Assembly (NCBI GenBank): GCA_002841405.1
Contig: PGZR01000006.1
Coordinates: forward strand, 1 to 48,412
Direction of reading: 5' to 3'
DNA length: 48,412 nucleotides
DNA from: Firmicutes bacterium HGW-Firmicutes-4
Lineage (GTDB): Bacteria; Bacillota; Clostridia; Eubacteriales; Eubacteriaceae
Made by a program: the position numbers and the translations under genes. How positions within the stretch are numbered: position 1 is the stretch's first letter; each line of letters begins with the position of its first letter. This document shows positions 33,611 to 46,946 of the stretch, in pieces. Below the pieces are notes generated by a model, which worked only from the letters and a program-made list of their open reading frames with translations, was not told the DNA's origin and searched no databases.

Positions 33611-35341
33611 TTACGTTCCGATCACCCGGTTAATAAAAACCGCGGCGATGGCCGGGTCAAACTGCGTGCCGGAATTGTGAACAATGGCGCGGACAGCCTG
33701 GCTCTGGTCCATTGCCGGCCGGTAGGGGCGATCGGTGAGCATCGCATCGTAGGCTTCGGCAATCGCGATAATCCGGGCCAGCAGCGGGATTTTCAGACCG
33801 ACCAGGCGCGTGGGATAACCGCTGCCATCCCACCATTCGTGGTGACCAAGAATCGCCAGGGCAATTTCGGCTCTGTCCGCCGAGGTATTGGTAATATGGT
33901 AGCCGATTTCCGGATGTCGTTTAATCGCCACCCACTCATCGGCGGTCAAAGCGCCCTTTTTATCCAGTAGCTGGGGATCAAGGGTGACCTTGCCAATGTC
34001 ATGAAGCAGGGCCACCCAATTTAGGGTCTCCAGCTCCTTGTCACTGAGATGCATTTCCATCGCGATCAGCCGGGCATAGCGGCTGACATTCTCGCCATGG
34101 GTTTTTTCAATCGCGCTTTTTTGATACAACGACGCCATGATCATGCGAATGGTATTGTCCCGGACCTGGGGTTTCATCTCCAGTTTGTGCTTGTACATAT
34201 AATTTTCGGCATTCTTAAACACTGTTGTGATATCTTCAGACAGGTTTTTTTTGGTATCCCAGCCAAAGGCGATCGACAGCACCCCCTGGTCAACCGGGGC
34301 CAAAGCCACGGCCTGATTCATTCGTTCGACAATTTTAATGGTGGTTTCCTCATCGGTATTGGGCAACAACAGCACAAATTCATCGCCGCCCCAGCGCGCT
34401 GCGACATCATTGGGGCGACAGAATTTTTTGATGATTTTGCCGGCGGCATAGATCACTTCGTCCCCCGCCAGGTGACCGAAAGAATCATTGATCATTTTCA
34501 GACTGTTGATATCGCCCATAATAATCGACAGCGGAAAATGGCGGCGGCCATCAATCCGTTTCAGTTCTTCTTCAAAATAACGGCGGTTATAAAGCCCGGT
34601 CAGGTGATCATGGTAGCTCAGGTACTCAATTTGCTCATTTTGGGCGGTCCGCTCGGTGATGTCCCGAAAAATCAGCACCACTCCGGTGGTGTTTCCCTCA
34701 CTGTCTTTGACTGGGGTGGCGCTGTCCTCAATATTAAAGCGGTTACCATGGCGGTCGGTGATGACGGCGTGGTTGGTCGAGGCCGTACTGAGATCGGTTT
34801 TGAGGACCTCATCGACCGGATTGGGGACCTGATATTCGGAATTTTCATGGGTCAGGTTAAAAACCTGGCTAAAGCTTTGGCCCTGCGCCGCATCATTGGT
34901 CCAGCCGGTCAGCTCTTCGGCGACTCGATTTAGCATCGTCACCCGCTGCTCCAGATTCACCACGATAATGCCATCCCCGACGCTTTTCATAACCTGATCC
35001 AGATTTTTATGGCTCCATTCCAGCTGGTTGATGAGCAGATAAATCCCCGAGGCAACAAACAGCAAAATGCTGGCCCGGAGGATCGGCGGCATTAAAAAGA
35101 CGCCGTTGCTAAGATAGTCCATGACGATATGGAACACTCCCAGAAACATCGCGACCTGGATCACATATTGTTTGTACCACAGACCGACCATCACGATCAC
35201 GACGTAAAAGAGATGGGTGTAGACCACATCAATGCCCTTGAAATAATTGAAATAAACCGCTACAAAAATCGTTCCCAGCAAACACAGGCCGACCATGGTG
35301 ATGCGGATCTGATGATTGACATTTTCCTGAAATCTTTCCAT
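33611..35341 (-). CDS. Membrane PAS-GGDEF-HD-GYP protein
   Basis: A 576-residue bifunctional c-di-GMP enzyme. Four to five short membrane helices (~14-106; VGLCLLGTIFVAVYF, LFYVVIVMVGLWY), PAS (~115-235: VMKSVGDGIIVVNLEQRVTM), GGDEF (~245-400; MGDINSLKMIND, GGDEF, inhibitory RPND five residues before it) and HD-GYP (~410-574; HDIGKVTLD, HHEWWDGSGYPTR). Both active sites look complete. The ATG is 23 nt from the nearest recognisable AG-rich site, so the ribosome site is weak. It is a close relative of the proteins at 26722 and 36997 and ends 22 nt before the flavodoxin-ferredoxin gene. Confidence 0.92.
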   Translation of the reverse strand: MERFQENVNHQIRITMVGLCLLGTIFVAVYFNYFKGIDVVYTHLFYVVIVMVGLWYKQYVIQVAMFLGVFHIVMDYLSNGVFLMPPILRASILLFVASGIYLLINQLEWSHKNLDQVMKSVGDGIIVVNLEQRVTMLNRVAEELTGWTNDAAQGQSFSQVFNLTHENSEYQVPNPVDEVLKTDLSTASTNHAVITDRHGNRFNIEDSATPVKDSEGNTTGVVLIFRDITERTAQNEQIEYLSYHDHLTGLYNRRYFEEELKRIDGRRHFPLSIIMGDINSLKMINDSFGHLAGDEVIYAAGKIIKKFCRPNDVAARWGGDEFVLLLPNTDEETTIKIVERMNQAVALAPVDQGVLSIAFGWDTKKNLSEDITTVFKNAENYMYKHKLEMKPQVRDNTIRMIMASLYQKSAIEKTHGENVSRYARLIAMEMHLSDKELETLNWVALLHDIGKVTLDPQLLDKKGALTADEWVAIKRHPEIGYHITNTSADRAEIALAILGHHEWWDGSGYPTRLVGLKIPLLARIIAIAEAYDAMLTDRPYRPAMDQSQAVRAIVHNSGTQFDPAIAAVFINRVIGT

Positions 35342-36891: not shown

Positions 36892-36998
36892 CAAGGGGAC
36901 GGTTCTTTTGTGTTCTGTTCCGCGTTGCATTCATGCGGACACACTACCTCCGTCCCCTTGTGTCGTCTCCCCTTGTGTCGTCCCCTTGTGTCCCAATC
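36892..36998. repeat. Extragenic palindrome and short tandem repeats (GGGGACGG type)
   Basis: CAAGGGGACGG (36892-36902) is an exact inverted copy of CCGTCCCCTTG (36950-36960). The right arm is followed by two further copies of a CCCCTTGTGTCG-like unit, giving three tandem units in about 45 nt. The left arm continues GGTTCTTTTGTG, a pattern I recall in extragenic repeats linked to Y1-type REP transposases in Firmicutes. It fills the space between the tetR promoter and the stop of the next gene. Confidence 0.7.
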
Positions 36999-39267
36999 AC
37001 CAGTGGGACACCTGGTTAATGAAGCGCTCCACCAGCCGCGGGTCAAACTGGCTGCCGGCCTGAGCCCGTAATTCGCGGATGGCCTCTTCACGGGAACGGG
37101 CCGGCTGGTAAACCTGATCATGGGTCATCACGTCATAGGCATCGACAACGGCCAGAATGCGGCTGTTAAGCGGGATTTTCTCACCGCTGAGCCCCGAGGG
37201 ATAGCCGGAGCCGTCCCATTTTTCATGATGATGGAGGATTTCCTCGGTGACCACATGGAGCTCCGGCACATTGACGGCGATCCGATAGCCGATTTCCGAA
37301 TGGGTTTGCATGATCTCCCATTCTTCCTCGGTGAGACGCCCGGGCTTGCTGAGAATATGATCGGGAATCCCCACTTTGCCGATATCATGGAGCATCGTCA
37401 GCAGGATCAGGCGGTTTTTGGCTTCGACGTTCAGGGCCAACAGCTCGGCCAGTTTCATGACGTGATCGGACAAGCGCTGGGTATGGGCCTTGGTTTCAGC
37501 CTTATTTTCATCCAGCGCCGCCAGCAGGGCGTTAATGGTGGTGCCCCGCATGCTTTTGCTTTCTAACAGCTTGATCTGATACATCATCTCCTCGGCTTTT
37601 TTAAGAACCGCCCCGGGTTCATCATCCCGGCTCTTTTTCAGCGCCACCCCAAACGAGACGCTGGCTTCAATGGTGCCATTAATGCAAATATCCTGGAGTT
37701 GCTCCTTGATCCGTTTGACCAGCACTTCGGCATCCTTCAGATCCGAACCCGGCATCACGATCATGAATTCATCGCCACCCCAACGAATCACCTGATGGCG
37801 GGAACCGGCCGCAACCTTGAGGGTTTTGGCAATATCCGTAAGCAGTTGATCGCCGATGGTATGGCCAAAAACGTCGTTGGTCATCTTCAGGCCGTTGACG
37901 TCACCCATGACAAACGCCATCGGATGGATCAGCTTGATCTCTTTCTGACTGAAATACTGCTCATAAAAGCGCCGATTGTAAAGGCCGGTCAGGGCATCGT
38001 GGTAGCTTAAGTATTCAATGCGGCGTTTCTTTTCCCGGGACAGGGTAATATCCCGAAAGACCATTACCACGCCGCTGATGGTGCCGTTTTGGGCGCGGAT
38101 CGGGGCCAGGCTGGTTTCAATGGGAATCATCATCCCCTCCTTATTAAACAGCACGGTGGGCGCGGTGATTTCCTGGCTCTGGCCGTCTTCAAGCACCTGG
38201 GCCACCAGTCCGGCCAGGGGCTCCCGGGTATATTCATGACAGATCGAGAAAATGGCCTCAAAGGGTTGGCTCTGCACTTCACCGGTCTGCCAGCCACTGG
38301 CCTGCTCGGCCGCCGGATTGAGGTAGCTGATGTTACCCTCGGCATCGGTGGTAATCACCCCGTCATGAATGGCATCCATGGTGGTTTTATGGAGCTCCTT
38401 TTCGCGATAGAGGGCGGCGGCATTCTGTTCCCGTTCGGTGGCATCGGTGATGACTGAAAAAAGATACGGCTGGCCGTCTAGTTCCAGCGGGCTGGAGTGG
38501 ACATCGACCATTCGGATTTCGCCATTCTTCAGCCGGTGGGGAAACAGAAAGTACTGCTGCCGACCCGCCAGCGCCTGGTGGCGCCGATCAGCCACCGCCG
38601 CCGGGGACAGGGTGTTGATCTGGTCAATGGTCATGGTCTTGAGCTCTTCCAGGGAATAGCCGTAAAAGGCCAGGGCCGCGGGGTTGGCATCGACAATGCG
38701 CCCCGACGCCGGTTCGATCAGCAGCATGGTGGCGGTGTGGGTCTGAAACATCTGGTCAAAGCGGGTCGTGGCCAGATGGTTTTTTATCATCCAGTCCTTC
38801 AGCACTTTGGTGTTCAGCTCGGTCACCACAATAAAGTCCTGGTCAGCGGCAGCAACCGGAGCCATGCGGCACAGCTGTTCCCTGACTTCGCCATTCCAGC
38901 AGGCCCTGCCCTTAAAAAGAATGGTTTGCCCGCTTTCCCGGCAGCCGTCAGCGTTTTTTTCGTAGACCTGGTAATAGGCTTCCCCGAGCACCGTTTTTAA
39001 ACTCTGATTACGAATCGCTTTCTGACCGAACCCGGTCATTTTTTCGTGCTCCCAGTTGTTATAACAATAAACCCAGCCAGCCGCGGTTTTAACCAGCAGC
39101 GCCATCGCCTCGGAATTATACTCCACCATCATCTCCAGATAGTCCGCTTGGCTCAGCCGTCGGTGCCAGCCTTTCCGGGCTTTCGGGGCGATGGTCACTG
39201 GCTGACTCCCAGTGTTTTTCTTTTTGGCAATGCGTCGCCACAAAAAGTTCTGGTCATTCTGTTTCAT
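36997..39267 (-). CDS. Multi-PAS GGDEF-HD-GYP protein, soluble
   Basis: A 756-residue cytoplasmic c-di-GMP enzyme. Three PAS-like modules: ~40-165 (YNSEAMALLVKTAAGWVYCY), ~175-290 (MLLIEPASGRIVDANPAALA, ending ITDATERE) and ~300-420 (TMDAIHDGVITTDAEGNISY). GGDEF follows (~430-580; MGDVNGLKMTND, GGDEF, no RxxD inhibitory site), then HD-GYP (~590-750; HDIGKVGIPD, HHEKWDGSGYPSG). No membrane helix is visible, unlike its paralogues nearby. The ATG at 39267 follows AGAGGAAAAACC; the frame extends 28 codons further without a ribosome site. Both catalytic centres look complete, so the net direction depends on signals to the PAS domains. Confidence 0.92.
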   Translation of the reverse strand: MKQNDQNFLWRRIAKKKNTGSQPVTIAPKARKGWHRRLSQADYLEMMVEYNSEAMALLVKTAAGWVYCYNNWEHEKMTGFGQKAIRNQSLKTVLGEAYYQVYEKNADGCRESGQTILFKGRACWNGEVREQLCRMAPVAAADQDFIVVTELNTKVLKDWMIKNHLATTRFDQMFQTHTATMLLIEPASGRIVDANPAALAFYGYSLEELKTMTIDQINTLSPAAVADRRHQALAGRQQYFLFPHRLKNGEIRMVDVHSSPLELDGQPYLFSVITDATEREQNAAALYREKELHKTTMDAIHDGVITTDAEGNISYLNPAAEQASGWQTGEVQSQPFEAIFSICHEYTREPLAGLVAQVLEDGQSQEITAPTVLFNKEGMMIPIETSLAPIRAQNGTISGVVMVFRDITLSREKKRRIEYLSYHDALTGLYNRRFYEQYFSQKEIKLIHPMAFVMGDVNGLKMTNDVFGHTIGDQLLTDIAKTLKVAAGSRHQVIRWGGDEFMIVMPGSDLKDAEVLVKRIKEQLQDICINGTIEASVSFGVALKKSRDDEPGAVLKKAEEMMYQIKLLESKSMRGTTINALLAALDENKAETKAHTQRLSDHVMKLAELLALNVEAKNRLILLTMLHDIGKVGIPDHILSKPGRLTEEEWEIMQTHSEIGYRIAVNVPELHVVTEEILHHHEKWDGSGYPSGLSGEKIPLNSRILAVVDAYDVMTHDQVYQPARSREEAIRELRAQAGSQFDPRLVERFINQVSHW

Positions 39268-39374: not shown

Positions 39375-40877
39375 TCAGTCAGGCAAGCTCTTTTTGGCGG
39401 CCTTTTCGGTATACATCCGTTGATCAGCCTGATGAAAGAGCTCCTCCCAGGTCAGGCTGCCGCCGACCTCATCACCATGGCAATAGCCCACCGACAGGCT
39501 CAGTTTTAGAATCGGATCAGCACGATCATGGTTATGTTTATCAATGATGGCGGCAATCCGTTGTTTTAAGGTTTGGGCGGTATTGAATTGACAATTCGGC
39601 ACAATGATATAAAACTCATCGCCACCGACCCGGGCCACCAGGTCGCTTTCGCGAAAGGCTTTTTTGAGGACCCGGCCAATCCCCCTGATCAGTTCGTCAC
39701 CACTGGCATGGCCGTAATCGTCATTGACCCGCTTGAGGCCGTCGATGTCGCAGACAAAGGCGCAGGTGCCGGGCTGGATCTCATTCCGGCTGGTATATTG
39801 GTTAAAATAATTGCGGTTATAGAGCCCCGTCAGCGCATCGTGATAGCTGATATAGGCGACCTCATCGCGGGACCGTTCCAGCAGTTCATACTGGACCGAA
39901 TTAGAAATCGCCAGGGCGCTGACCCGGGCAATGCTGAGGGCAAAATTGGCATAGTCATTGATTTTTTCGGGCCGCTGAAAATCGCCGATTTCCAGGGCCC
40001 CAAAGGTCTCGCCGTAACGGCTCAGCTTGACCACCAGATAATGCCGGTCAGCATCGATTTTAAACTCATCATCGATGTCGTCGAATTCGGCCGCCAGATA
40101 GCTATCAAAATAATCATCATCGCCAGCTTCCAGAAAACGGACCCGGCCAGCCCCAAAAATAAATAAAAAGAGCTCTTTGATCTTGGCAATAATATCCCGC
40201 TTTTTAGTATAGCCGGTGATGGCCTCAATGATGTGCAGAACGGCCGCATATTCGGCCCCCTGTTTTTTGAGTTCATCCAGCTGCAAACTCTTCTCACTTG
40301 GGCCTGCCTGGACCTGCCGCCAGTCATTAATGACTTGGCTGAGATAAAGGGTCAGGCTGTCCATGCCCACATAGATCATCCGGTAAGGCAGCTGGATATA
40401 GTCGGCCAGCGCCGCTAGCCGGCTTTCAATACCGGGATCATTGCCAGTATCCAGCAGCACCAGTTCCGTGCAGGTCTCTCCGTAGAATTGGCGTGCCGTG
40501 GTCTGATTAAAGCCCCCCAGGAACAACCATTTTTCCCAGTTGAGCAACCAGCCACCAGTGATAATGTAACCGCCTTTGGCAATAATATAATCAATGAATT
40601 TTTCGTTGACGTAGTCGTGAAAACAATGGCTGCCGACCAGCACGGTGGTGTTGGCATCATCCCGCTCCGGCATTTGCGCCACCAGACAGGCGCGGCTGGT
40701 GATGATCAGCTTAGGCCCGGTATCCGCCGCCATTTGCTGGCCCACCACACCACGCTTTTTACGGTCATGACAGAGGCAGTTAAAAGGCCGGATCGTGACA
40801 AAATCAAAGCCCTTGTCCTCAACAATCTGCCGATAGTCCCCGGCATAAATTTCACAGACATAGAGGTTAAGATGCAT
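39375..40877 (-). CDS. DUF1638-like domain fused to GAF-like and GGDEF domains
   Basis: A 500-residue diguanylate cyclase. Residues ~1-190 resemble DUF1638 (LYVCEIYAGDYRQIVEDKG, TVLVGSHCFHDYV, YIITGGWLLNWEKWLFLGG, ELVLLDTGNDPGIESRLAAL), a domain I know from genes beside corrinoid methyltransferases. Residues ~195-340 are GAF-like (LFLFIFGAGRVRFLEAG, GALEIGDFQ). The GGDEF domain (~345-495) has VCDIDGLKRVND, GGDEF and the inhibitory RESD five residues before it. GGAGG lies eight nt before ATG 40877; the start overlaps the end of the methyltransferase gene by 11 bases, so translation is probably coupled. It should convert a methyl- or corrinoid-related signal into c-di-GMP; the signal is inferred. 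Confidence 0.85.
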   Translation of the reverse strand: MHLNLYVCEIYAGDYRQIVEDKGFDFVTIRPFNCLCHDRKKRGVVGQQMAADTGPKLIITSRACLVAQMPERDDANTTVLVGSHCFHDYVNEKFIDYIIAKGGYIITGGWLLNWEKWLFLGGFNQTTARQFYGETCTELVLLDTGNDPGIESRLAALADYIQLPYRMIYVGMDSLTLYLSQVINDWRQVQAGPSEKSLQLDELKKQGAEYAAVLHIIEAITGYTKKRDIIAKIKELFLFIFGAGRVRFLEAGDDDYFDSYLAAEFDDIDDEFKIDADRHYLVVKLSRYGETFGALEIGDFQRPEKINDYANFALSIARVSALAISNSVQYELLERSRDEVAYISYHDALTGLYNRNYFNQYTSRNEIQPGTCAFVCDIDGLKRVNDDYGHASGDELIRGIGRVLKKAFRESDLVARVGGDEFYIIVPNCQFNTAQTLKQRIAAIIDKHNHDRADPILKLSLSVGYCHGDEVGGSLTWEELFHQADQRMYTEKAAKKSLPD

Positions 40878-41931
40878 CCTGATCCCCTCCAATCCCGTTC
40901 AGCGGATACTGACCCCACTCCGCCACCGTTTCGGTAATCGTCGACAAGACCTGGGGCGGCACCTGATAAGGGATTTCGCCGTGGGAATCCGACAGCAGGA
41001 AGCCGCCGCCAGGAGCCGCCTGGCGGATCAGGCTTGTAACCTTTTCCCGCGCTTTAGCCGTAGTCCAATTGATCATCTCAATGCCGTTGAGATTGCCCAG
41101 CAAAGCAATCCGGTTGCCGGCCCGGGCCTTTAACAGCGCCACATCGTCGCCCTGACTAAAGCCAATCATGGCGGTTTTACTGGCGATGATCTCGTCCAAG
41201 ACCGGTAGCGTTATGCCCGAGGCCAGGTGGGTGGCGGTGGGCCCCTTGATTTTGGCCAGGGTCTGACAGTCAAGGGGGTAGCCAGTTTTTAAATAGGTGG
41301 CTTTTTCAATGATGGTCGGCGAGGCCAAAGGATTAAAATAACAGATGGCCGTAGCCCCAGCGGCCAGCTGGGCATTGGCCCAGTTGACACAAAAAGCACT
41401 GTTAAGGGCCATCAGTCGGGCAAAGAGCTCCGGCCGGAAATAAAGCAGCTCCAGATAGGGCTCAAAGCCCAGCTGCATCACCGGCAGCGAGAAGGGAGAC
41501 ATCACCACCCCGATAATCGGAATGCTGTCCCCCACTGCTTGTTTCAGGCCCTGGGTGATGTCGAGAATCCGTAACAGCCCGGGGCTGTCGGCCAGCTCCG
41601 GCAGGGTCAGACCGGGGATATCGTCCAGGCGGTCAAGCAGCGGTTCGCCGGAATTGGGCGGGCCATCATCGACAAAGACGACCTCACCACCCCAGGCCTC
41701 GGTTTCCAAGGCCGCATAGGCAAAGCTGTAAAGACAGTCGCTGCGGTATTTTTCTTGCAACAGCAACTGGGTTTTGATCACCAGTTCGGCATCGCTAAAA
41801 TAGTCTTTGACGGATATTTGCCGTTCCCGGGCGCCATAAAGTGAAAAGAGCAGCATCAGCGGCACCCGATCCGGTTCCTGATGGGATAGGGCGGCTAAGA
41901 CCCGTTCCATTGAAGTCATGTCGTTTTTCAT
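40867..41931 (-). CDS. Uroporphyrinogen decarboxylase-fold (MtaA/MtbA-like) methyltransferase
   Basis: A 354-residue TIM-barrel protein of the URO-D/MtaA group, which moves methyl groups between corrinoid proteins and thiols or other acceptors. Family features: SMERVLAALSHQEPDRVPLM, ETEAWGGEVVFVDDGPPNSG, FSLPVMQLGFEPYLELLY, and GNLNGIEMI. The usual zinc motif HxC is HLA here (THLASG), and the late cysteine region reads LSDSHGEIP, so the classical Zn-thiolate site is not conserved. It overlaps the corrinoid gene (ATGA) upstream and the DUF1638-GGDEF gene downstream. It may use another metal or act as a binding subunit; the substrate is unknown. Confidence 0.85.
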   Translation of the reverse strand: MKNDMTSMERVLAALSHQEPDRVPLMLLFSLYGARERQISVKDYFSDAELVIKTQLLLQEKYRSDCLYSFAYAALETEAWGGEVVFVDDGPPNSGEPLLDRLDDIPGLTLPELADSPGLLRILDITQGLKQAVGDSIPIIGVVMSPFSLPVMQLGFEPYLELLYFRPELFARLMALNSAFCVNWANAQLAAGATAICYFNPLASPTIIEKATYLKTGYPLDCQTLAKIKGPTATHLASGITLPVLDEIIASKTAMIGFSQGDDVALLKARAGNRIALLGNLNGIEMINWTTAKAREKVTSLIRQAAPGGGFLLSDSHGEIPYQVPPQVLSTITETVAEWGQYPLNGIGGDQDAS

Positions 41932-42569
41932 GGTGCGGTCACCAGCCTTTCGATAATCTCAATCACCGCCGTGGCATTTTTGCCATCGGCATCGGCCCCT
42001 ACCTGCTGCCACAGACTGTTGTCAAAGCGGAAAGGCGCTCCGCCGACAATCAGCCGGGTGGTGATCCCACGGGCCTCAAACTGCTGGCGAATTTCCTTGA
42101 TCTTCAGCGCCGAAGGCAGCATCAGGGTCGAAACCAGCAAGACATCGATGCGATAGGCCATGGTTTTTTCCACCATTTCATCGACACTCAGGCCATAGCC
42201 AAAATCAAAGATCTCAAAACCTTCAGCCTGAACTACCGCTTTGACAATCCGTTTACCCAGGGCATGATGATCAATCAGGACGCCAATGCCAATTTTGGGG
42301 CTGTTTTTGCGGACCATCCGGAATTCCGGCAGCATCCGCCCAACGATTTCTTCGCAGATTACCCCACTCATATATACCTGCGACAGCGAGTAATCGCCGA
42401 CTTCCCAGCCCTCACCGATAAGCCCCAGGGTCTCGGTGATGACCTGTTCAACATCGCTAAAGGACTGCCGCTGAGCTGCTACTTCGCGGAGCACCTGTTC
42501 CGATCCGATCCGGTCCATTGAGAGTAACCCTACTAGAAATGCTTGAATCTGTTGCGCCTGCTGTTCCAT
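41928..42569 (-). CDS. Corrinoid (B12-binding) methyltransferase protein
   Basis: A 213-residue two-domain corrinoid protein of the MtaC/MtmC class. The N-terminal helical cap (~1-90) includes SLSQVYMSGVICEEIV. The Rossmann B12 domain (~95-213) carries the cobalt-ligating motif D-x-H-x-x-G as DHHALG, then SVDEMVEKT, LLVSTLM and GGAPFR for the corrin tail. It carries the methyl group between a substrate methyltransferase and an acceptor. It is first in the three-gene overlapping operon with the URO-D-type methyltransferase and the DUF1638-GGDEF protein. AGGTGAG precedes the ATG. It is the only corrinoid protein in the window, so it could also serve the methyltransferases at 44617-46946. Confidence 0.93.
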   Translation of the reverse strand: MEQQAQQIQAFLVGLLSMDRIGSEQVLREVAAQRQSFSDVEQVITETLGLIGEGWEVGDYSLSQVYMSGVICEEIVGRMLPEFRMVRKNSPKIGIGVLIDHHALGKRIVKAVVQAEGFEIFDFGYGLSVDEMVEKTMAYRIDVLLVSTLMLPSALKIKEIRQQFEARGITTRLIVGGAPFRFDNSLWQQVGADADGKNATAVIEIIERLVTAP

Positions 42570-42981: not shown

Positions 42982-43671
42982 TTAATTCACGGTGGCGTCG
43001 TTGTCATAACCCCGCTTTTCCCAGTAACCCTGGTAGTTTTCATCACTGGACAGTTCGATATCACTGACCCAGCGAGCCCACTTATAGCCCAGTTTATCTT
43101 CGGCCACAACGATAAACGGAAAACCCATCGACGCCGGCAATACCACGCCATTGGCTGAATATGCCAATAACATCTCTTTGTCTTTAATGGTCGCCAAGGG
43201 CAGCGAAGTGGTATAGCCATCGACACAGTGAAAGATAACGGTGTTGGCATCGTCTTTAATCCCGGCATCGGCCAGCAAATCAGTGATCCGCACCCCTTCC
43301 CATAGCACTGTGGCCTGCCAGCCTTCAACACAATAGAGGGTAATCAGGCGCTGCGCCGGTGCTTTGGCCAGGACCTGTTCATAGCTGAAGCTGACCGGTG
43401 TCTCAACCAGACCGGTCAGCTGGAGCTGATAGCTGTCAAGATCGACCGTTTGAATCCCGGAGATTGAATTATCCCGGGGACCGATGGCCGGGTCCAGCCG
43501 GACTCCCTGATAGTCACGGATTTCCAGTTCCTGATAGCGGTCGGCCGTCGCCTGGGAAACCCCATCTGGCGGGCCATTGTTATTGTCTGAAAACAAGTTC
43601 ATCGTACTGACCAGGTAAACGGCAATCCCAGCTGCGATAACCGCACCCACCAAAATAATTTTTCGTCTCAT
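42982..43671 (-). CDS. Membrane-anchored sulfite-oxidase-fold molybdopterin oxidoreductase
   Basis: A 229-residue protein with an N-terminal signal or anchor helix (KIILVGAVIAAGIAVYLVST) followed by a sulfite oxidase/YedY-type molybdopterin domain: DSYQLQLTGLVETPVSFSYE, the molybdenum-ligating cysteine in LYCVEGWQA, DLLADAGIK, FHCVDGYTTSLPL, and GYKWARWVSDIEL. Such proteins sit outside the membrane; YedY (MsrP) reduces methionine sulfoxide, but the substrate here is not evident. AGGAG lies before the ATG, which overlaps the stop of the upstream truncated hydrolase. No heme partner (YedZ) is adjacent. Confidence 0.88.
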   Translation of the reverse strand: MRRKIILVGAVIAAGIAVYLVSTMNLFSDNNNGPPDGVSQATADRYQELEIRDYQGVRLDPAIGPRDNSISGIQTVDLDSYQLQLTGLVETPVSFSYEQVLAKAPAQRLITLYCVEGWQATVLWEGVRITDLLADAGIKDDANTVIFHCVDGYTTSLPLATIKDKEMLLAYSANGVVLPASMGFPFIVVAEDKLGYKWARWVSDIELSSDENYQGYWEKRGYDNDATVN

Positions 43672-44156
43672 AACCAGATCTCCTTGATTAAGAATCTCTT
43701 TATAAGATAATTAGTATTACTGTACGACCATTTTTCACCAACCGGAAATTTCAATTGGTAACCTTTTACAATTTGTAGTATTTCTTGGGGTGTATGACGT
43801 TCGCCCCATTTTATTTGTTTTTTTAGCATTAAGTAGTTAGGGATCCCTGAAGTATGGGTTAGAAGGTGATGAATGGTAATTCCATGACCCTTGTAAAAGT
43901 CAGGAAGATAATCTTCAATATGCTGTTGTGTTGAAAGCATCCCTTTTTCTGATAACTGCATAATGCTTAATGCCGTTATTGTCTTTGTCATCGAGCCAAT
44001 CATGAATTTTGTTTGAGGTGTGTTTTTTATTCCTTTTTCCCTATTTGAATAGCCATATGATTCATTAAAGATAATTTTATTATTTTTTGATAACAATACA
44101 TTTCCGCTAAATTTCTTTTGTTTTTTAAAGTATTCATTAAAATTAATATTCATCAT
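43668..44156 (-). pseudogene. C-terminally truncated serine hydrolase (beta-lactamase/class C family)
   Basis: 162 residues of a penicillin-binding-protein-like hydrolase: SGNVLLSKNNKIIFNESYG, the nucleophile motif SMTK, HHLLTHTSGIP and the second motif YSN in WSYSNTNYLI. It then ends abruptly (KRFLIKEIWL) where the family normally continues for 150-200 residues to a third motif. It is clearly more AT-rich than its neighbours and uses AAA/AAT/ATT codons heavily, so it may have been acquired and then cut when joined to the molybdoenzyme gene. GAGG precedes the ATG, so a stable fragment may still be made, but it should be inactive. Confidence 0.75.
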
Positions 44157-44616: not shown

Positions 44617-45423
44617 TTACTTCCCCACCGCGCCAATCTCCCTGGCCCGGTAGGCCTTGCTGTACTTGCGGCAATGCTTATCCTGACCCAGCAGGGCATA
44701 GCTGGCAAAGATGGTACCCATCATGTCCCGGTTTAACGGGTCCAGTACCGCCGAGTCCAGCCCCGCCGCCATCGCGAAGGCCATCGCGGTTTTGTTGAGC
44801 AGTGGCCGTAGGGGTAAACCAAAGGAGATATTGCTGATCGCCCCGGTTACATGAATGGTCGGATAGAGGGCTTTGATCGCCCGGATTTCGGCCTCCAGAT
44901 TCAGTAGCGCATTGTTTTCCGTCGACAGGGCCATCACGCAGGGATCAATATGGATCCGATCCGGGGTGATGCCAAATTTGTCCGCTTTTTCAACCATACT
45001 CGCGGTGATTTTAAGCTTCGTTTCCAGATCGCAGGGAATCCCGTTGTTGTCGCAGGTCAGCCCCACCACCTCCCAGCTGTTGCCAGCCAGCAGCGGTAAC
45101 AGCACGGCGCACTTGTCACCTTCTTCTGAGATCGAGTTGAGCAGCCCCGGCTTATTGGCGTATTGAAAAACCGCCTCAATCGCCCGAGGGTTGGGACTAT
45201 CAATACACAGCGGCGTTTCGACGGCCTCCTGAACCACTTCAATCAACCATTTCAGGGTTTCAATCTCCAGCTCCGGAGTGGTACTGGCGCAGACATCGAT
45301 AAAATTCGCCCCAGCCGCCGCCTGTTTGACTGCCCGGTCGGCAATAAAAGCGGCGTCACGCGTCTCGATTGCCTCCTTAACCGCCGGAATGCTGCCATTA
45401 ATTTTTTCTCCGATTATAATCAT
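44617..45423 (-). CDS. Methyltetrahydrofolate:corrinoid methyltransferase (MtgA/AcsE-like)
   Basis: A 268-residue pterin-binding TIM barrel that moves a methyl group between a corrinoid protein and tetrahydrofolate. Motifs: IIIGEKINGSIPAVKEAI, GANFIDVCAST, CIDSPNPRAIE, VGLTCDNNGIP, HIDPCVMALST, and HVTGAISNISFGLP. It resembles MtgA-type enzymes of demethylating anaerobes and is shorter than methionine synthase modules. AAGGAG lies upstream of the ATG. It follows the URO-D-type methyltransferase and the 45-residue gene, from which it is separated by a terminator, so it may have its own promoter. In an acetogen it would feed methyl-THF into the Wood-Ljungdahl pathway. Confidence 0.93.
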   Translation of the reverse strand: MIIIGEKINGSIPAVKEAIETRDAAFIADRAVKQAAAGANFIDVCASTTPELEIETLKWLIEVVQEAVETPLCIDSPNPRAIEAVFQYANKPGLLNSISEEGDKCAVLLPLLAGNSWEVVGLTCDNNGIPCDLETKLKITASMVEKADKFGITPDRIHIDPCVMALSTENNALLNLEAEIRAIKALYPTIHVTGAISNISFGLPLRPLLNKTAMAFAMAAGLDSAVLDPLNRDMMGTIFASYALLGQDKHCRKYSKAYRAREIGAVGK

Positions 45424-45582
45424 CTCGTCGCTCCTTATTTTGCTTAGCTATTTATTTCGAAATTAATACTATCGCACAATTTTTTCTAAATCAGCAGGTT
45501 CATGTAAAAATCAAAGGTTTCGAACCGTCTGGGACCTTGTGTTACTGCGATCAAGTAAAATTATCAATCCCATTTATTCAGT

Positions 45583-45621
45583 TTAAAAAATACAACCCCG
45601 GTGTCAGCAGGAGTTGTATTT
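45583..45621 (-). terminator. Terminator after the 45-residue gene
   Basis: AAATACAAC (minus strand from 45621) pairs with GTTGTATTT (to 45588), with partial pairing inside and a T run after it. It lies 14 nt beyond the stop of the 45-residue gene. Confidence 0.8.
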
Positions 45622-45634
45622 AGTTTAAGCGTAC

Positions 45635-45772
45635 TTAAGCCGATAACATCGTAAATTTCATCATCTCAATAAAACCAGCCGCAACTTCTTCCGGCATGCC
45701 GGCCAGCTCGATGTTCTTAATATCTTCCAATACTTCTAATACCGTTTTTTCATTTTCTAAGTTATTTTCCAC
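45635..45772 (-). CDS. 45-residue acidic protein cotranscribed with a methyltransferase
   Basis: A short frame starting at GTG 45772, 13 nt after the methyltransferase stop, with GGAGG eight nt before it. The peptide, MENNLENEKTVLEVLEDIKN then LAGMPEEVAAGF, is acidic and helix-forming and ends FTMLSA. A terminator follows directly, so gene boundaries are tight. A longer frame on this strand reaches back into the methyltransferase and is not real. No family is recognised. The tight placement suggests a small subunit or regulator of the methyltransferase. Confidence 0.7.
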   Translation of the reverse strand: MENNLENEKTVLEVLEDIKNIELAGMPEEVAAGFIEMMKFTMLSA

Positions 45773-45785
45773 TTTCCTTGCCTCC

Positions 45786-46946
45786 TTATTTATATACACC
45801 ATATTTATGAACAAAATCGTGAGTCGCGATGAGGTTTTCCACATTGACATCATAATTTGACAATAGCTCCCGGCTGGAACCGAAGATGTATCCGCCACCG
45901 GGTGCCAGTTCGTCCACGAGTTTTTTTGCGTAGTCAATACAATCTTCTTTTTTACCCAGTTTGAGCATTTCCATTGGCATCCCGCCGGCAATGGTAATGT
46001 TATCACCAATGCGTTTCTTGGCTTCAAAAATATCGTCGCCCTCGAGGATACCGATCGCAAAATCTTTTGGCAGGCTGTTCAGCCAGTCATATTTGTTTTC
46101 CCATTCACCTTCCAGCAGCATGATCAGTTTTCCGCCACGTTTGTGAATCTGATAAATTTGTTTCTCGTAGGTTGGTACAAAGAATTTTTCAAATTGTTTG
46201 GGACTGAGAAAGGTTGGCAGATGCATCATGGTTCCAAAAAACGGAAATTCCGGCACGGCTGTCGTTTCTTCCTGAAAGCCCAATAATATATCGGCCAATG
46301 GTTGAACAGCTTCACAGGCCGCCACTAGGTCATCCTGGTTTCGCCGCAAATCCATTGAAATCCCTTTGAATCCACGCAAATAATCAAAAATATAGTCAAG
46401 CGGTGGATAGGCAACACCGCCTACAATCACAGGAAGCTGATAATCGGTTTTCAGTTTTTCCTTCAATTGGCCCAGCATCATCCCTTTCACTTTCCAGTGA
46501 TCCACCAGGTCTTTTATGGCGGCATATTTTTCAGCCGTCGTTCCGGCCAGTTTGGTCGCTTTACGGGGAAGCATTTTATTGAAAATATACCCTTCCGGGT
46601 CGCCAATCAACTCCTGATATTCACCGGCTTCCATGGGAGCAATTTCCTTATGCTGAATGGTTGCGCCGTCTTTTGAAACAAAATGGCTTGCGCTGCCAAT
46701 ACACTCCGCACTTTTGGCATCACTGACACAGCCGGCGGATAAGGTGACATCGGAATAGAGTTTTTTATGTGGTTCGCAATAATAATCAATTTCCTTTTCC
46801 GGATGGTCTTCCATTTCCTTAATGGTTCCGCCTGCGTAATGAATCGCCCAGGTGCCAATCATTGATAGAATTGGTACCTTGTCCGGTTCCTGATGATTAA
46901 CCGTGGTTTGAATCCGATTGATTCGTTCTTGATAAGTATCGCCCAT
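45786..46946 (-). CDS. Uroporphyrinogen decarboxylase-fold methyltransferase (possible O-demethylase component)
   Basis: A 386-residue TIM-barrel protein: INRIQTTVNHQEPDKVPILS, SDVTLSAGCVSDAKSAECIG, LPVIVGGVAYPPLDYIFDYL, GFQEETTAVPEFPFFGTMMH, LLEGEWENKYDWL and GGMPMEMLKLG. URO-D-fold methyltransferases of this length include the vanillate/syringate-type O-demethylases of acetogens, which transfer a methyl group from a methoxylated aromatic to a corrinoid protein; glutamates rather than cysteines may bind the metal in that group. The substrate here is unknown. GGAGG precedes the ATG. The promoter contains two TetR-type operators beside a divergent tetR gene, so expression is probably substrate-induced. 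Confidence 0.88.
   Translation of the reverse strand: MGDTYQERINRIQTTVNHQEPDKVPILSMIGTWAIHYAGGTIKEMEDHPEKEIDYYCEPHKKLYSDVTLSAGCVSDAKSAECIGSASHFVSKDGATIQHKEIAPMEAGEYQELIGDPEGYIFNKMLPRKATKLAGTTAEKYAAIKDLVDHWKVKGMMLGQLKEKLKTDYQLPVIVGGVAYPPLDYIFDYLRGFKGISMDLRRNQDDLVAACEAVQPLADILLGFQEETTAVPEFPFFGTMMHLPTFLSPKQFEKFFVPTYEKQIYQIHKRGGKLIMLLEGEWENKYDWLNSLPKDFAIGILEGDDIFEAKKRIGDNITIAGGMPMEMLKLGKKEDCIDYAKKLVDELAPGGGYIFGSSRELLSNYDVNVENLIATHDFVHKYGVYK

Follow-up and report, generated by a model that had tools for sequence, protein, structure and literature searches.

A conserved corrinoid/URO-D/DUF1638 gene cassette with exchangeable cyclase and kinase outputs, proposed as a chemosensory unit

Introduction

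Why would a corrinoid (B12-binding) protein and a methyltransferase homologue of the URO-D fold be encoded together with a protein built like a diguanylate cyclase? This question is raised by three overlapping genes at positions 39375-42569, minus strand, of a 48,412-nucleotide stretch of DNA from the Acetobacterium-like Firmicutes bacterium HGW-Firmicutes-4 (contig PGZR01000006.1, assembly GCA_002841405.1); the whole of this stretch is called the window here. A sequence-only reading had described a corrinoid methyltransferase operon whose last gene encodes a DUF1638-GGDEF cyclase, and had proposed that a DUF1638-like domain at the N-terminus of the third protein senses corrinoid or methyl state and reports it as cyclic di-GMP (c-di-GMP), naming conservation of the three-gene order in relatives as one test. 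The computational follow-up reported here shifts the emphasis: the locus is a real, conserved signalling cassette, undescribed as far as we have searched, which uses known kinds of signalling (a cyclase or a sensor kinase) with an unusual receptor. With a probability that we put at roughly 0.6, the three genes constitute a self-contained chemosensory cassette in which the corrinoid/URO-D pair would be the receptor, with DUF1638 reading its state and driving the output.

Results

The genes and domains of the cassette lie in the window as follows:

41928-42569, minus strand: corrinoid (B12-binding) protein of the cassette subfamily, 213 residues; PF02310 59 bits, PF02607 24.2 bits, each over its cut-off
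40867-41931, minus strand: URO-D/MtaA-fold methyltransferase homologue of the cassette subfamily, 354 residues; PF01208 168.3 bits
39375-40877, minus strand: transducer, a DUF1638-like, GAF-like, GGDEF protein, 500 residues from the ATG at 40877, with its stop at 39375
40308-40877, minus strand: DUF1638-like input domain of the transducer, residues 1-190; PF07796 25.6 bits; Cys8, Cys36 and Cys85
39873-40295, minus strand: GAF-like middle domain, residues ~195-335; alignment block and modelled fold
39390-39845, minus strand: GGDEF diguanylate cyclase domain (predicted), residues 345-496; PF00990 121 bits; inhibitory site (I-site) RESD

As the sequence-only reading had it, the corrinoid and URO-D genes overlap by 4 bases (41928-41931) and the URO-D and transducer genes by 11 (40867-40877), and its assignment of a B12 protein, a URO-D-fold protein and a GGDEF protein was confirmed by Pfam (59, 168 and 121 bits). 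A GGAGG lying 8 bases upstream of ATG 40877 favours this codon as the transducer start over TTG 40892, farther upstream.

A corrinoid protein, a URO-D protein and a DUF1638-like protein are encoded in this same order on one strand at 17 loci; 16 of these belong to the window's phylum and one, on a plasmid of Azoarcus sp. KH32C, to a second phylum. The three-gene order is therefore kept in relatives. Within the genus, 3 of 19 genomes carry the cassette, namely the window's, G015 and G016 (Acetobacterium fimetarium DSM 8238); a class sample (391 genomes) adds G423, a phylum sample that overlaps it (398 genomes) six more (G818, G540, G796, G480, G732 and G487), and one Clostridia family (194 genomes) another six (G923, G972, G966, G863, G1000 and G970). 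These broad searches scored only the best first-look candidates, at most five per genome in the class and phylum samples and ten in the Clostridia-family search, with open reading frames (ORFs) taken from a crude caller that greedily picks the longest frame. When plasmids were searched by tblastn for the window URO-D, seven records came up, only Azoarcus (53.8% identity) being of the cassette type and the other six lying at 21.6-27.9%; viral contigs searched with the URO-D profile yielded none, and no constant gene flanking the cassette was seen in ORF tables read by eye. Three candidates were set aside: G013, with a match of 32 residues at 22 bits, and G120 and G195, whose sub-threshold URO-Ds had no DUF1638 hit at the fetched loci by our own profiles; in G195 a corrinoid protein and a ferredoxin-like ORF adjoin the URO-D, as in an ordinary methyltransferase cluster. 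Two irregularities were noted among the cassettes, with the DUF1638 and kinase parts of G487 standing in two overlapping frames (L084 5604-7831; a break or a sequencing error), and the G015 corrinoid protein (L025 6778-7323) lacking ~32 residues of its relatives' helical cap, which may be an assembly fault or a loss.

Within the samples searched, the corrinoid and URO-D subfamilies of the cassette occur only in the cassette. A cassette-type URO-D (559.7-599.7 bits, scores inflated by the inclusion of these same genomes in the profile) was found in 7 of the 398 phylum-sample genomes, which are exactly the seven that have a DUF1638-output fusion; below them in this sample come one URO-D at 226.8 bits and others of no more than 171.5. 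The DUF1638/GAF profile itself matched 42 of the 398 genomes, 35 of which were not counted as fused as judged by frame length (120-303 residues), and 23 of those 35 loci were read. Each of 16 cassette genomes (16/16) harbors exactly one member of the corrinoid subfamily (196-333 bits), the other matches listed for the 24 genomes scanned not exceeding 101 bits. In a left-out test, made for the corrinoid protein only and, with Azoarcus, for all three proteins, cassette corrinoid proteins scored 186-281 bits against profiles without their own lineage vs. at most 103 bits for 37 non-cassette proteins; the Azoarcus proteins, scored against profiles excluding Azoarcus, reached 263 bits for the corrinoid protein (next 100.5), 520 for the URO-D and 207 over 352 residues for the DUF1638-like protein. 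The 16 cassette corrinoid proteins also form one clade against the 37 others (support 98/97), and the clade was recovered at 100/100 in a tree that included Azoarcus, the long-branch row L152 being dropped.

The window corrinoid protein has both cobalamin-binding domains (PF02310/PF02607) above cut-off, with the D-x-H-x-x-G motif present as DHHALG together with VGGAPF. All 17 cassette corrinoid proteins but L090, which has Ser for Asp, share this motif; in Azoarcus it reads DNHMLG by alignment, an automatic pattern match there being false. The model for methyltransferase corrinoid proteins (TIGR02370) gave 62.5 bits, its cut-off of 215.3 not being reached. The URO-D protein falls well within its superfamily (PF01208, 168.3 bits vs. 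a cut-off of 23.9), scoring 80.9 bits with the MtaA/CmuA model TIGR01463 (cut-off 235.4, not reached) and 88 bits with a second NCBIfam model (cut-off 244). Aligned to MtaA (4ay7), it displays HLA where MtaA has HIC. The Cys of this His-x-Cys site, which we take to serve zinc binding and thiol activation in MtaA, is present in 0 of 17 cassette URO-Ds, and in 6 of the 17 the His is gone as well (L085, L087, L089, L090, L092 and L094).

As judged by sequence, the N-terminus of the transducer is a divergent DUF1638 branch. The window protein scored 25.6 bits with PF07796 (E 1.3e-5), the cut-off of 27 not being reached, and we therefore label the domain DUF1638-like; with the window protein below it, the Pfam cut-off was dropped as sole proof of DUF1638 in favour of orthologues and the conserved alignment. 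Over the N-terminal 192 residues the window protein is 67% identical to its G015 orthologue, which lies above the cut-off at 32.3 bits, as do 12 of the 16 same-type proteins scanned with Pfam (the window's included), the four misses being the window's at 25.6, that of A. fimetarium (G016) at 18.9, the orphan kinase L021 at 16.8 and Azoarcus at 22.5 bits. The resemblance to DUF1638 claimed by the sequence-only reading thus holds for the orthologue and most relatives, with the window protein itself staying sub-threshold. All 20 aligned fused rows have Cys8, Cys36 and Cys85; Cys8 and Cys85 are likewise present in every row of a 35-row alignment that includes stand-alone DUF1638s, and position 36 is His in 17 of 17 stand-alone rows vs. 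Cys in the fused rows. The model of the DUF1638-like domain had a predicted local distance difference test (pLDDT) of 95.7 and a predicted template modelling score (pTM) of 0.89. In a Foldseek comparison with the PDB it had no match at E <= 0.001; the best hit, a CcpA chain (E 2.8e-3, template modelling score 0.35), was followed by LacI-type and other weak hits, and no fold was assigned. No solved relative was found by sequence, four saposin-type solved structures at E 0.05-0.09 being taken as chance.

Between this domain and the GGDEF domain lies a GAF-like domain that the sequence-only reading did not mention and for which Pfam makes no call; it appears as a conserved alignment block common to the GGDEF and histidine-kinase fusions, and the model folds it separately. 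An AlphaFold2 model of the full transducer (20-row alignment; mean pLDDT 88.6) displays an N-terminal alpha/beta domain, the GAF-like domain, a long helix and GGDEF, with a pTM of 0.45 that makes the orientation of the domains relative to each other unreliable; Foldseek matched it to solved diguanylate cyclases, phytochrome-cyclases on top. The GGDEF domain itself is strong (PF00990, 121 bits vs. a cut-off of 23.8). Both the intact GGDEF loop and the inhibitory RESD reported earlier were read within RESDLVARVGGDEF, and the third gene thus carries the GGDEF signature of a predicted diguanylate cyclase.

The output of the cassette is not constant, with GGDEF at 6 of 17 loci (the window, G015, G016, G818, G540 and G480, the last with a PAS domain placed before GGDEF) and a histidine kinase at 11 of 17, where the kinases of L089, L092 and L094 are called by our own profile only; a receiver domain was found by Pfam in 5 of the 11 kinase-ending cassettes. 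Two changes of the GGDEF/kinase label are required on the URO-D tree and likewise on the DUF1638/GAF tree, and 0% of 200 bootstrap trees permit a single change; apart from G480, the five GGDEF members form one clade (100/98 on the URO-D tree, 100/99 on the DUF1638/GAF tree). c-di-GMP is therefore one of at least two cassette outputs.

The genomic setting of the Azoarcus cassette bears on what might be sensed. It is annotated as a cobalamin-dependent protein, a URO-D family protein and an 'ATP-binding protein', the third being a DUF1638-like histidine kinase (HATPase_c 64 bits; HisKA 24.5 and DUF1638 22.5 bits, both sub-threshold). As read from annotations only, H4MPT (tetrahydromethanopterin) formaldehyde-oxidation genes lie 3 kb off, a PQQ (pyrroloquinoline quinone) methanol/ethanol dehydrogenase gene ~7.5 kb off, and RuBisCO and a furan-phosphate synthase gene within ~16 kb. 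One-carbon (C1) oxidation by the PQQ/H4MPT route is not known to need corrinoid methyl transfer. By analogy with this neighbourhood, our guess is that the cassette ligand may be methanol or another C1 compound. An HD-GYP-type phosphohydrolase gene (L153 5281-5907) lies divergent near this cassette, with one small gene between.

A more distant arrangement was found in G780 (L184 4238-6924), where a 556-residue protein combines a corrinoid domain (82.6 bits) with the signalling domain of a methyl-accepting chemotaxis protein (MCP; 86.9 bits), its gene overlapping a URO-D gene (227 bits) in a GTGA arrangement; this URO-D recurs at 76% identity in 1 of 4 other genomes of the family, at a contig edge. 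The G780 locus suggests that a corrinoid/URO-D unit can also be wired to chemotaxis.

Downstream of the cassette in the window, 107 bases past the cyclase gene, lies a further gene of the c-di-GMP type:

36997-39267, minus strand: PAS-PAS-GGDEF-HD-GYP gene, c-di-GMP phosphodiesterase type; HD_5 134.7, GGDEF 110.1 and PAS_4 89.6 bits

Its ATG at 39267 was read by eye, the ORF list putting the start at TTG 39351, and it possibly shares the cassette transcript. In G818 a GAF-PAS-GGDEF-HD-GYP gene (L079 7110-9485) precedes the cassette on the same strand, so that a same-strand HD-GYP gene stands beside 2 of the 6 GGDEF cassettes; at these two loci only, neighbour and cyclase would form a pair for c-di-GMP synthesis and breakdown. 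The HD-GYP gene of G015, on the opposite strand ~1 kb off the cassette, was left out of this count. Another PAS-GGDEF-HD-GYP protein is encoded at 33611-35341 of the window, ~4 kb downstream of the cassette. On the upstream side, at 2-4.4 kb, are a methyltetrahydrofolate:corrinoid methyltransferase (MeTr)-type gene (44617-45423) and a URO-D gene of another subfamily (45786-46946), with no corrinoid gene noticed between them in the ORF list (44617-46946). Profiles for MeTr, MttB and RamA, built from one or two sequences each so that distant forms can escape, found nothing up to 6.5 kb from the cassettes except the MeTr gene of the window; two of the contigs were short, and for the Azoarcus locus the check used annotations only. 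At 43668-44156 the window also has a 162-residue beta-lactamase-fold ORF that covers only positions 10-152 of the 329 of PF00144 and looks like a truncated remnant. A search with a defence-system library gave no match.

Discussion

Recognizing that the corrinoid and URO-D subfamilies are confined to the cassette in the samples searched, that MtaA's His-x-Cys is lost and that the cassette occurs among PQQ methylotrophy genes, we surmise that the corrinoid/URO-D pair is the sensor part of the system. The URO-D protein would bind a methylated compound and transfer the methyl group to the corrinoid or in the reverse direction, or merely dock on the corrinoid protein, so that the methylation or redox state of the corrinoid would record the compound; the DUF1638 domain of the transducer would in turn dock on the corrinoid protein and read this state, and the GAF-like/coiled-coil linker would pass the signal on to the output, c-di-GMP synthesis in the window and a histidine kinase in 11 of 17 cassettes. 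Control would run in this direction, from receptor to output. Of the two modes for the URO-D protein, sensing of the methyl donor by methylation of the corrinoid is probably the one used. A more specific form of this proposal, which strikes us as possible if somewhat doubtful, is that the cassette represents a dedicated, non-catabolic B12 methyltransferase pair serving as chemoreceptor for an environmental methyl donor (e.g. methanol), with DUF1638 as readout, c-di-GMP and phosphorelay outputs interchangeable, and chemotaxis reached by fusion.

That DUF1638 senses corrinoid state, as the sequence-only reading had it, gains support from the swap of the output, which may be GGDEF or histidine kinase behind an unchanging corrinoid/URO-D pair; c-di-GMP would be one of at least two outputs. 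Its framing as a methyltransferase operon with a cyclase at the end probably needs to change, in view of subfamilies that occur, in the samples searched, only in the cassette, the lost His-x-Cys and an aerobic methylotroph as carrier. Earlier work on DUF1638 is consistent with a corrinoid partner. Fitness data for Phaeobacter inhibens link two genes, one for a stand-alone DUF1638 and one RamA-like, to the genes of methionine synthase by correlation, and in the available passages of that study DUF1638 is given no specific function (Price et al. 2018, PMC5764234); according to the portion available of a 2025 paper, DUF1638 is one of the proteins with a predicted part in the reductive recharging of cobalamin (PMC12478193). 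DUF1638 is thus tied genetically to corrinoid reactivation, which by analogy would support its working with corrinoid proteins in the cassette.

Several points weigh against a chemosensory role. Carried by only 3 of 19 genomes of the genus, the cassette is dispensable; the window transducer on its own misses Pfam's cut-off for DUF1638; well-supported branches alone force a single change of output, the second swap hanging on the placement of G480; the G780 pair lacks DUF1638 and is a distant relation (227 bits); and the hint of a C1 ligand comes from one locus, Azoarcus. In addition, one Clostridia family harbors orphan DUF1638-kinases, some with PAS (L020, L021, L086, L088, L091, L093, L095, L096, L097 and L098), and the nine loci with visible neighbours have no corrinoid/URO-D gene, the contig of the tenth (G943, L098) ending on the upstream side; the second DUF1638-kinase of G966 is left out of this count. 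Eight genomes with orphan kinases only have no cassette-type corrinoid protein, their best corrinoid matches (93-101 bits) lying in methionine synthase-like frames of 799-837 residues. Since such orphans exist, the DUF1638 domain can work without the corrinoid/URO-D pair, and it may read other corrinoid proteins, or something else. Lastly, other methyltransferase genes stand 2-4.4 kb upstream of the cassette in the window.

These upstream genes would suit an ordinary catabolic methyltransferase I/corrinoid pair, co-transcribed with a regulator that feeds back on the pathway. Acetogens hold many such pairs, the window's genome has 27 corrinoid matches, and real catabolic clusters such as mec include regulators, according to the available part of the report (PMC9768040). 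We nevertheless regard this explanation as unlikely: both subfamilies are cassette-only in the samples searched, with a single corrinoid copy per genome, the Cys is missing at MtaA's site, the Azoarcus cassette sits among PQQ-dependent methylotrophy genes, and the MeTr, MttB and RamA profiles (one or two sequences each) had no hits near cassettes save the window's MeTr. Less probable again is that the DUF1638 half is a corrinoid reactivation partner, with the GGDEF or kinase half controlling or reporting repair only. Such a role would fit Cys8 and Cys85, common to fused and stand-alone rows, as well as the P. inhibens DUF1638, which tracks methionine synthase genes in fitness and co-occurs with a RamA-like gene in the passages available (PMC5764234), but the one-sequence RamA profile has no hit beside the cassettes, orphan fused kinases retain the domain without a corrinoid neighbour, and position 36 is Cys in the fused rows rather than the His of 17/17 stand-alone rows.

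Light or oxygen might instead act on the corrinoid, with the transducer reporting, in the manner of photocobilins, which use B12 domains as light sensors with diguanylate cyclase outputs, as described in the part of the source available (PMC11796333). A B12 photoreceptor or oxygen sensor would leave the URO-D partner, present in 17 of 17 cassettes, without a clear use; one carrier, Acetobacterium fimetarium, is an acetogen, and the corrinoid domain is separate from the output in cassettes, and we consider this explanation very improbable. Chance neighbourhood of unrelated genes, for which the 3 of 19 genomes of the genus might speak, is hardly credible given a gene order that recurs at 17 loci across two phyla and the one-to-one linkage in the 398-genome sample.

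If the proposed reading of methyl state by the cassette is true, the receptor itself would be of a new kind, in which corrinoid methyl-transfer chemistry, known from catabolism and biosynthesis, doubles as a receptor; the DUF1638 family would gain a testable role, the recognition of corrinoid protein state, that fits its genetic link to B12 reactivation. In the literature searched, which left most subscription papers and all bioRxiv preprints outside, we found no description of a corrinoid/URO-D/DUF1638-output cassette; the DUF1638 passages available do not mention a GGDEF or kinase fusion, and no paper in the literature searched brings URO-D, corrinoid and c-di-GMP together. A term search of a broad 2022 review of c-di-GMP inputs for cobalamin, corrinoid, B12, methanol and DUF1638 gave no hits (PMC8846402), and the cassette would, if our proposal is true, add a stimulus class absent from that review as judged by these terms. 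C1 sensing by acetogens, and possibly by aerobic methylotrophs, would then be directly testable with three small proteins.

Among known B12 regulators, CarH and photocobilins have, to our knowledge, no methyltransferase partner. As proposed for the cassette, a B12 domain signals in photocobilins, according to the available text with a diguanylate cyclase (PMC11796333), but B12 domain and output share one light-driven chain in CarH and photocobilins, in contrast to the separate genes of 17 of 17 cassettes; a direct corrinoid-output fusion was seen only in the distant MCP protein of G780. The mec cassette of dichloromethane degraders likewise clusters a corrinoid protein, URO-D-superfamily proteins and a histidine kinase, the differences, as far as the available part of the source goes, being a PocR domain in the kinase and a larger cluster tied to dichloromethane metabolism (PMC9768040). 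Stand-alone DUF1638 proteins (PF07796), among them PGA1_c13340 of Phaeobacter inhibens, share the Cys8 and Cys85 positions and a GWL-type motif with the transducer in the aligned rows and are tied to corrinoid enzymes; they have no output domain and, in the available passages, are genetically implicated in corrinoid reactivation for methionine synthase (PMC5764234). With the MtaC/MtbC/MtgC corrinoid proteins (TIGR02370), the cassette corrinoid protein has in common a helical cap and a B12-binding domain with D-x-H-x-x-G, whereas it stands in a separate clade (62.5 vs. 215.3 bits). Finally, the cassette URO-D shares the URO-D fold of the MtaA/CmuA family (69.5-bit profile match for Methanosarcina mazei MtaA, 4ay7), and differs from it in lying far below the NCBIfam cut-offs and in having lost the Cys of His-x-Cys that MtaA has kept.

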